DNA of 42,435 nt. Origin: Candidatus Zixiibacteriota bacterium. GTDB taxonomy: Bacteria; Zixibacteria; MSB-5A5; GN15; FEB-12. Positions 36,177 to 39,057 of this stretch are shown here, piece by piece. The DNA lies in NCBI GenBank assembly GCA_024276275.1, contig JAJRXM010000038.1:1-42435 (forward strand). Reading direction: 5' to 3'. Below the pieces are notes generated by a model. The model saw only the letters and a list, made by a program, of their open reading frames with translations. It had not been told where the DNA came from and did not search any database. The position numbers were made by a program, and so were the translations under genes. The number at the start of each line of letters is the position of its first letter. Position 1 is the first letter of the stretch.

Positions 36177-36623
36177 CTACGAGATATTTATCTCAATTTC
36201 TTTCGGTTTTGTTTCTTCTTTTTTTGTAAGAAGAACATGTAATAAACCATTTTTATATTCAGCATTTACCTCATCGGTTTTCACAGAATCAGGCAAATTA
36301 AATGATCTGCTGAATGAACCTGATGAAATCTCTGTTCGTACATAACCGTCTGTTTTTACTTCATTTTCAATTTTTCTTTCACCGGAAACTGTTAACATAT
36401 TATTTCGCACAACAACCTTGATGTCCGACTTTTCCATTCCGGGAAGTTCAAAAGTCAATAAAACAGAATCATCATGCTCTACGATATTGACTTTCGGATT
36501 AAATGATTTTGCTGTCGGTGAATCCGAAAAAAATGTCGGTAAAAATGATTGTCCGAAAAAGTTGTTAAAGAGTCCATCAAATTCATTTTCAACTCTGTTT
36601 GGTGTTACGAGAAATCTAGTCAT
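36177..36623 (-). CDS. hsp20: Small heat-shock protein Hsp20 (alpha-crystallin)
   Basis: 148 aa. The N-terminal arm has LFNNFFGQSF. The alpha-crystallin domain runs from ~45 (FNPKVNIVEHDDSVLLTFELPG) through VVRNNMLTVSGER and SFSRSFNLPDSVKTDEVNAE to the conserved A-x-x-x-n-G-L motif (YKNGLLHVLL). The C-terminal tail KEIEINIS carries the IxI/V anchor that docks oligomers. ATP-independent holdase. AAAGGAG precedes the ATG; the upstream region carries a sigma-54-like promoter and a phased repeat array. Confidence 0.95.
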   Translation of the reverse strand: MTRFLVTPNRVENEFDGLFNNFFGQSFLPTFFSDSPTAKSFNPKVNIVEHDDSVLLTFELPGMEKSDIKVVVRNNMLTVSGERKIENEVKTDGYVRTEISSGSFSRSFNLPDSVKTDEVNAEYKNGLLHVLLTKKEETKPKEIEINIS

Positions 36624-36647: not shown

Positions 36648-36706
36648 TAACGTTTTTGTTACGTCTGTCAGTCTTATATATAACAAACTACGTGCCAAAA
36701 ACGTTA
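36648..36706. repeat. 11-bp inverted repeat bracketing the hsp20 promoter
   Basis: TAACGTTTTTG (36648-36658) and CAAAAACGTTA (36696-36706) are perfect inverse copies 37 nt apart. The upstream arm (relative to hsp20) touches the -24 element, and the other arm would lie in the 5' leader. Suggests looping or a two-site repressor. Confidence 0.55.
36682..36698 (-). promoter_or_regulatory. Sigma-54-like (-24/-12) promoter of hsp20
   Basis: The minus strand reads TTGGCACGTAGTTTGTT, matching the YTGGCACG-N4-TTGCW consensus except T for C in the -12 element. No better sigma-70 pair with standard spacing was found between the inverted repeats. The phased motifs upstream support an enhancer-dependent promoter. 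Confidence 0.5.
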
Positions 36707-36762
36707 TACTACTGTATTACAACATGTTATGAATTACAGGTCAGGGAATGAATCTAAGCGTA

Positions 36763-36840
36763 TGCCGATACGACATAACAGTATGCCATTACGACATCGC
36801 ACTGATGCCGTTTTGTCGCACTCGACTGCCGGATTGTCGG
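36763..36840. promoter_or_regulatory. Array of four phased TGCC motifs upstream of hsp20 (enhancer-like)
   Basis: TGCC occurs at 36763, 36784, 36806 and 36827, that is at 21, 22 and 21 bp intervals (two helical turns). Each is followed three bases later by ACGACA (first two) or TTGTCG (last two). The array begins about 65 bp upstream of the -24/-12 element and ends exactly at the stop codon of the HEAT-repeat gene. The arrangement fits binding sites for a sigma-54 activator. Confidence 0.5.
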
Positions 36841-37698
36841 TTATTTCTTGGACAATATTTCTTTTATTGTTTTATTGATAGGAGAATTCTTAAAAAATAT
36901 CTTTTGAGTAGTAGGCTGTTCTTCATGATATTGTTTTATTGTTCTGATAGCTTGAGAATCACCGTGATTTCCGAGTGCTTTAATTGTTGCAAGTCGAATT
37001 TGCTCTTTAGAAATCTTTGAACTCGTCAAACCCTCCAATAGATGTTCATCTTGTATTATTTGACTTAAAAATTTCACTGCTTCATCTCCGCCGACCCTAC
37101 CGAGTGAATGAATTGCCTTTAAAGCTACTTGAGGATTTTGGATTGAAAGAGATATCAATAGGGGAGCAACTTCAGCGGTTCCTATTAAACCGATTGTAAT
37201 AACCGCAGCTTCACGAATCTCACGGTCGTCATCATCAGCCATCATCATTAGAATATCTACAGACTCGTCACTGCCGATTTTTTCAAGTGATGAAATAATT
37301 TCGCGACGAACCCGTACATCAGGGTCATTAATTCGTAACCGTAAAGGGATACATCCTTTTTTATCTTTCAATAAGCCAAAGACAAAAATAGCATTCCGAA
37401 TAACATACCATTGCTTATTCGGTAGCTCTCTTCTTCCTTCTTCACGATTGAATAACTCATCATCGGCAAGAACCCTTCCAAAAACATCCAATGATGCATG
37501 CCCTAATTCACCCAATATCTTAAGTGCCAGTTGACGAACCTGCCTGTTTTCATGGGAGATAATATTTGAAAGTGCTACCGCAACTTCTTCAGAACCGGAA
37601 CCTATCAGCACATCTTTGAGGTGTTGATTGGTCGAACTATTTCCTTTGAGAAGTTCCGCTATCAACCCGTCAATCACAGATTTCTGATTAAAATTCAT
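36841..37698 (-). CDS. HEAT-repeat protein
   Basis: 285 aa, soluble, no signal peptide. It contains about five HEAT/PBS-lyase-type repeats: VRQLALKILGELGH, VRREIISSLEKIGSDESVDI, IREAAVITIGLIGTAEVAPL, VALKAIHSLGRVGGDEAVKF, and IRLATIKALGNHGDSQAI. Such solenoids mediate protein-protein contacts; partner unknown. It lies 45 nt after the interrupted HEAT-type gene and probably belongs with it. Confidence 0.82.
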   Translation of the reverse strand: MNFNQKSVIDGLIAELLKGNSSTNQHLKDVLIGSGSEEVAVALSNIISHENRQVRQLALKILGELGHASLDVFGRVLADDELFNREEGRRELPNKQWYVIRNAIFVFGLLKDKKGCIPLRLRINDPDVRVRREIISSLEKIGSDESVDILMMMADDDDREIREAAVITIGLIGTAEVAPLLISLSIQNPQVALKAIHSLGRVGGDEAVKFLSQIIQDEHLLEGLTSSKISKEQIRLATIKALGNHGDSQAIRTIKQYHEEQPTTQKIFFKNSPINKTIKEILSKK

Positions 37699-37743: not shown

Positions 37744-39057
37744 TTATATTCTACGACGGAGATAAAGCGAGTGCATTATTTTCGCCAGGAAGGCATAATC
37801 TTTTTCGACTATCGCTTTTTCTATTATCTGCCAGATAAACTCACTATATTCAAAAGTTTCTTTTTTCTCAAATAGATTCCTGATAATTACCTGTGACAAT
37901 TTCTCAAACAGATACGTATCGCTAAATAAGTTTAACGAATTTACTATTTCAATAAGAATACTGAGTGCTTTTTGCCTAAAATCATAACTGGCATCACCGA
38001 GATGGTTTACTAACCGGGAAGAAATTTCTACTGATTTTTCTTTTTGACCTGTCTTAAGCAGCCTCACAAAACTTTCAGCAAAAATAGTAGGTGAGAATTC
38101 TATTGATAAATCAGAAAAGGTTTCTTCCATTAATGAATCAATCGTTTGTTGTGCTTCTTTTCTAATTCGCACAGAAGGAGACTTGAGCTCATTCCCAAAT
38201 TCATTTGACAGATCCTCACAAGAAATATACGATTCTACTGCTTTTGATATAGAATCATACTCCGGATGAAACTCCATGATTCGGCAAATATCTTTACATA
38301 TAGCAACACCGGCATCTTTTTTATCACCCTCTTTTTCCGAAGCTAACTCGCTAATATGCTGTTTTACTTCTGTATGAATTGTATCAGCAGAAAGGAGAGC
38401 TACTTTTTCGGGAATAAGCCTATAGATAATATCTAAATCAAAATCACAGTAATGTTCTTCAGCAAACTTTTCATCGGTAGAATACAGTTGAGCTAAAGAT
38501 GTTATCGAATCAGGTAACTGCTGAATTATAATATTTCGCACAGAAAAATCATGGGATACATCTCCCCTATACTGGTCTTTCTATTCAAATATATTATAGG
38601 CATGTTCGGTGTTTACTTCGACAGTATCAATCTTTTCACTTTTCAAATACGATGTAATTAACTCATCATGATTTGAACGGTCAATCCTTGTAACAAAACG
38701 GAATATAAATTTTTCAAGCTCACCTAATGTAAGATGCTTTTCAAGAGTGAACGCTTTGATATCAAGCATCTGCATAAATTTAATTAGCTCTTCATTAAAT
38801 ACCGAGTCTTTCAGCCGGATATTAAGAAGATACAAATACCCGTTTTGCAGATTAAAGTTTATATACTTTTTATATCTAAATATTTTATCAATTAGCAAAA
38901 ATGGTTTCTGTATAGCTTTTTTTGACAAAGGATGTGTCGAACCGTAGATAGCTGCTTTTTTGCAAGCCATAGAAAACTCTTTAACAAGAGTATGAACTTG
39001 TTCGTTCAGATTAGTATTTAAAATTGATTCATTCGTTTGTTTGTTTTTGTCTATCAT
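37744..39057 (-). pseudogene. HEAT-type protein gene interrupted by an in-frame TAG
   Basis: One continuous frame of 438 codons has a single internal TAG (38583-38581) at codon 159. The first part (158 aa) has LVKEFSMACKKAAIYGSTHP and FTLEKHLTLGELEKFIFRF...IDTVEVNTEH, an N-terminal domain I associate with HEAT-repeat proteins of FCB bacteria. After the stop the frame reads straight on as KDQYRGDVSHDFSVRNIIIQ and then helical solenoid to 37744. The only internal start near the break (GTG 38541) has no ribosome-binding site. A single substitution such as AAG to TAG would explain it. Function unknown. The start overlaps the BamB-like gene by 29 nt. Confidence 0.75.

Follow-up and report, generated by a model that had tools for sequence, protein, structure and literature searches.

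How is the small heat-shock protein gene in this stretch of Candidatus Zixiibacteriota DNA (42,435 nucleotides, hereafter the window) switched on? Bacterial heat-shock genes are usually described as being under sigma-32, HrcA or similar repressors, and an earlier note on this DNA had proposed an enhancer-driven hsp20 served by a sigma-54-like promoter, a type of promoter that stays silent until an ATP-using activator fires. From features seen directly, namely sequence conservation, fixed geometry, the presence of rpoN and of enhancer-binding proteins (EBPs), and gene order, we infer site occupancy, activation and signal. Taken together, they make it very probable that hsp20 has a sigma-54-dependent promoter and, upstream of it, a four-site enhancer recognised by a single EBP, a degree of confidence that covers the sigma-54/EBP switch but not the identity of the EBP.

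The hsp20 gene and its upstream region

The gene encodes a 148-aa small heat-shock protein with an alpha-crystallin domain (36177..36623, minus strand, ATG at 36623; Pfam HSP20 PF00011, E 8e-25), 70% identical to its counterpart in the sister genome G003. Read along the minus strand, a HEAT-repeat gene (stop at 36841) is followed by four 13-bp sites, the element TTGGCACGTAGTTTGTT and then hsp20. This element (36682..36698, minus strand) is the predicted -24/-12 promoter, with a predicted transcription start near 36671, and it was rightly described earlier as one base off the sigma-54 consensus, carrying a single mismatch to TTGGCACGN4TTGCW.

Four sites recurring every 21-22 bp upstream of the promoter had also been claimed, and they are found, all on the minus strand and starting at intervals of 21, 22 and 21 bp: predicted activator site 1 (CGACAATCCGGCA, 36827-36839), the distal one, which adjoins the stop codon of the HEAT-repeat gene; site 2 (CGACAAAACGGCA, 36806-36818); site 3 (TGTCGTAATGGCA, 36784-36796); and the promoter-proximal site 4 (TGTCGTATCGGCA, 36763-36775). 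While the recurrence stands, the motif first proposed, TGCC-N3-(ACGACA/TTGTCG), is better written as the 13-mer NGNCN-N3-NGNCN, whose half-sites seem to flip orientation because GNC is its own reverse complement. For the same reason the core is intact in the window's genus, where the left half of sites 1 and 2 reads CGACA and the flanking letters alone differ; outside this genus the site consensus is TGCCATNATGGCA. When the short upstream stretch was shuffled in 2000 trials, none produced four such sites and one produced three. Searched with three spaced YGGCA boxes, the genome gives a match at the hsp20 locus and at one other place, and in the 469 kb of it that were sampled the hsp20 array is the only chain of at least three dyads.

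The earlier note had further pointed to an 11-bp inverted repeat at the promoter, with a left arm (TAACGTTTTTG, 36696..36706, minus strand) overlapping the -24 element and a right arm (CAAAAACGTTA, 36648..36658, minus strand) in the predicted 5' leader. The repeat is exact, real and unlikely by shuffling, but it is not a conserved component: a comparable one, of 9 bp, occurs in G003 and the other relatives have none. We therefore set it aside as an operator, and it is probably not functional.

The HEAT-repeat gene, also on the minus strand, is interrupted in the window by in-frame TAA/TAG codons at 37744-37746 and 38581-38583, positions that encode Glu in G003 and many other relatives, and in G003 the gene is a single uninterrupted one of 739 aa. 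In-frame stops also break dnaK, rnr and one enhancer-binding-protein gene of the same genome (L341:5582; L146:4240; L019). Since the residue found in relatives differs between cases (E, or D/S/Y/H), recoding seems unlikely, and nonsense mutations or errors in the consensus are likelier causes than an altered genetic code. The genome also encodes a tRNA-Sec (L360:6591-6687).

Conservation of the array and promoter

A search for relatives of hsp20 across the genus, family and order recovered the gene from 53 of 61 genomes; the best 30 matches, spanning 24 genera in two families, were fetched with their flanks. In all 30 loci the matched start is preceded, at a distance of 68 to 134 nt, by a -24/-12 promoter, and the array, whose lack in relatives the earlier note had named as a refutation, is present in every one of the 29 with enough upstream sequence. 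The named genomes with this arrangement are Candidatus Zixiibacteriota. Counted from the first T of TTGGCA, the sites fall at about -140, -120, -98 and -77 across the 29 relatives: the window's positions are kept within -138 to -141 for site 1 (-141), -119 to -121 for site 2 (-120) and -96 to -100 for site 3 (-98), and nearly all relatives share -77 for site 4, with a few at -78 or -75. The window's sites thus lie roughly within the range expected of activator sites at a sigma-54 promoter, about 80-150 bp upstream. The layout of four spaced sites and a predicted sigma-54 promoter is conserved across at least 24 genera.

Chance is one explanation against which these patterns should be weighed: within two mismatches, 1.43 matches to the -24/-12 consensus are expected in a window of this size, and a single match is no rarity, so the weight of the promoter comes from its conservation. 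The 29 loci hold 112 dyads against an average of 9.9 in shuffled sequence (maximum 17). Placing one 13-mer per slot, with four slots in each of 29 relatives, the core bases G2, C4, G10 and C12 (GNC-N5-GNC) are all kept in 100/116 slots, as opposed to 8/116 once the slots are moved by 10 bp; these shifted windows serve as a fair control given that the slot positions were picked after viewing the alignment. That 29 genomes keep the same four positions refutes a chance origin of array and promoter, which we consider vanishingly improbable.

Within the promoter, GGCA, the T and G of the -12 TTG (columns 13-14) and the spacing are invariant among the 29 relatives, and the rest of TTGGCACG and TTTG is nearly so. 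The consensus -12 C is replaced in 27 of them (T in 13, A in 14, C in 2), which counts against the sigma-54 reading, although such a departure is tolerated in E. coli pspA. Between array and promoter lies a further element, TAAN4TTG (TAACATGTTG, 36720..36729, minus strand), at fixed columns -31..-22, in which T/A/A are kept in 26/26/22 and T/T/G in 22/27/23 of the 29 relatives. It resembles an IHF site, being near the consensus WATCAAN4TTR but with T for C, and a perfect WATCAAN4TTR occurs elsewhere in two relatives; an IHF site between enhancer and sigma-54 promoter is common, though not universal. Among hsp20 matches in named genomes, the Zixibacteria loci carry the promoter. Farther afield, hsp20 is preceded by the promoter and array-like sites in a different lineage of Zixibacteria (L098) and, less clearly, in Calditrichaceae (L085) and UBP4 (L119), the dyads being weaker or displaced in all three, and hsp20 loci of Ignavibacteria, Chlorobi and Balneolaceae have -24/-12-like sites with no clear dyads.

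The dyads might alternatively bind a repressor or a sigma-70-class regulator, the -24/-12 element being used separately. Consistent with this, HrcA is encoded in the genome, and about half of the 29 relatives have dyads of the TGCCA-N3-TGGCA type, most of them single, ahead of a Lon-like protease gene (L240, L241, L251, L264, L269, L274) with no clear -24/-12 element, so the dyad-binding protein may act elsewhere too, or may not be an EBP. However, the distance from array to -24 element is fixed across genera, a scan of the region for sigma-70-type promoters gave one match, equal to the chance expectation, and the window holds no CIRCE match within 3 mismatches, making such a regulator improbable. 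No Rfam family, known RNA thermometers included, matched the window at the gathering score. We also considered the Lon-like gene as a second sigma-54 target and rejected it, given the want of a clear -24/-12 element in relatives and the lack of dyads there in the window's own genome.

Genes behind the proposed switch and candidate activators

The genome's own machinery is consistent with the sigma-54 reading of hsp20. The rpoN gene, which the earlier note had wanted looked for, is present (Sigma54_AID, E 2.4e-14), and 17 PF00158 matches comprise 16 candidate EBPs and one Clp ATPase. Other TGGCACR-N4-TTG matches, free of dyads, include those before what we take from sequence to be flgB and a protein with a PEP-CTERM-like tail; because promoters of the TTGGCACR..TTGC type precede ordinary sigma-54 genes such as flgB, sigma-54 is evidently in use. 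No array was found near the other sigma-54 promoter matches checked in this genome, with 469 kb sampled.

In most relatives hsp20 is followed by dnaK or dnaJ within about 100-170 bp, or by clpB further on, with a longer hsp20-dnaK-dnaJ-clpB locus in L075 and partial versions elsewhere; in the window's genus hsp20 stands alone, and the next recognised gene encodes an alpha/beta-hydrolase. While the proposal of an enhancer-driven hsp20 is therefore well supported by rpoN and the conserved array, its restriction to hsp20 is not, since this gene mostly heads a larger chaperone operon and the circuit is better described as a proteostasis operon. The genome carries a separate hrcA-grpE-dnaK-dnaJ operon, and as the ordinary dnaK stays beside hrcA in 4/4 genomes looked at, the sigma-54 operon likely holds a second set where dnaK follows hsp20. 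G023 carries a second hsp20 operon, again with array and sigma-54 promoter, which is arranged divergently to clpB (L238). Heat is a candidate signal for the switch.

Our best guess for the activator, a tentative one, is an orphan EBP encoded downstream of rnr (L146:5019-6425; G000:C13:120018-121424). By Pfam it has AAA+ and HTH_8 domains, no receiver domain, and a conserved N-terminal domain with no assignment. Its orthologs, full-length or contig-cut, are found in about 54/61 genomes, including 37/37 of good quality; their recognition helix, ERTLYRK, hardly varies, and the reciprocal best match in G062 shares it. No ortholog was found in the array-bearing G057, a genome that is 83% complete and in which hrcA is also missing. 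The same sigma-54 switch might also be imagined under a two-component response regulator EBP receiving its signal via phosphorylation, an option to which we give somewhat less than even credence. Two such receiver-type EBPs, L006 and L010, are kept as widely as the orphan one. L010 adjoins two sensor-kinase genes, presumed histidine kinases, and three array-bearing genomes encode counterparts of it, with about 70% identity in G030 and G057 and 62% in the distant G062; L006, however, lies near flgB and is probably flagellar, and the EBP genes tested have no dyads upstream, leaving no autoregulation clue. Among the loci scanned in relatives no EBP gene lies beside hsp20. Ten of the genome's candidate EBPs were scanned against NCBIfam, with no equivalog cut-off reached among the matches listed, and none of the ten reached the NorR cut-off of 476 bits.

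With either type of activator, EBP dimers would bind the four 13-bp GNC-N5-GNC dyads, about two helical turns apart, and assemble into a hexamer or larger ring, with the DNA between array and promoter bent at the fixed TAAN4TTG element. Using ATP, the EBP would then open the closed complex of sigma-54 RNA polymerase at TTGGCACGN4TTGW, such that hsp20 would be silent without the activator and strongly induced once it is switched on. The same switch would in most relatives control hsp20 together with dnaK, dnaJ and/or clpB; these would form a disaggregase set in addition to the ordinary hrcA-grpE-dnaK-dnaJ operon, whereas in the window's genus hsp20 alone has presumably remained behind the switch. 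A broader proposal, which we regard as doubtful, is that Zixibacteria and some FCB-group relatives possess a dedicated sigma-54 protein-stress regulon, run by the orphan EBP with its undescribed N-terminal domain. In this regulon, which would operate alongside HrcA, a rigid enhancer of four dyads would govern a second disaggregase operon, hsp20-dnaK-dnaJ-clpB, and the whole would constitute a separate class of bacterial heat-shock control.

Relation to known sigma-54 and heat-shock systems

Enhancers normally tolerate changes in distance. The rigid geometry of this array is unusual for an enhancer and opens both the number and the phasing of its EBP sites to direct testing, and the array offers a clear handle on a regulon in an uncultured phylum known here from metagenome-assembled genomes alone. 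The conserved layout suggests a type of stress-response switch that chaperone genes rarely have. As a sigma-54 promoter is silent until its activator fires, the chaperones would gain a tightly off, strongly on mode of expression.

The HrcA/CIRCE heat-shock system controls dnaK-type genes and is represented in the same genome by the separate hrcA-grpE-dnaK-dnaJ operon; hsp20 has no CIRCE nearby. In its architecture the hsp20 locus resembles the well-studied E. coli norVW, where three NorR sites upstream of a sigma-54 promoter are all required and provide a scaffold for the hexamer (PMC2941729): both feature several EBP sites, predicted ones in our case, but there are four rather than three at hsp20, and NorR senses NO through a GAF domain. 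In terms of the gene controlled, a close likeness is E. coli ibpB, which likewise encodes a small heat-shock protein and is reported to have a sigma-54 promoter (PMC4316790 citing Kuczynska-Wisnik 2001; PMC4370416). In E. coli, however, the sigma-54 promoter comes in addition to another one, within a sigma-32 operon, whereas that of the window's hsp20 is the only recognisable one and is joined by a four-site array, and in relatives dnaK, dnaJ and clpB follow behind it. In Bacteroidota, and also in the wider FCB group, the chaperone genes grpE and groES are under sigma-54 (PMC12316311); these are different genes from the hsp20 set, and the relevant passages of that paper do not describe an enhancer array or activator. 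Sigma-54 chaperone genes are thus already known, from E. coli ibpB and from Bacteroidota groES and grpE, and given these precedents the Zixibacteria switch is a variant of a known theme.
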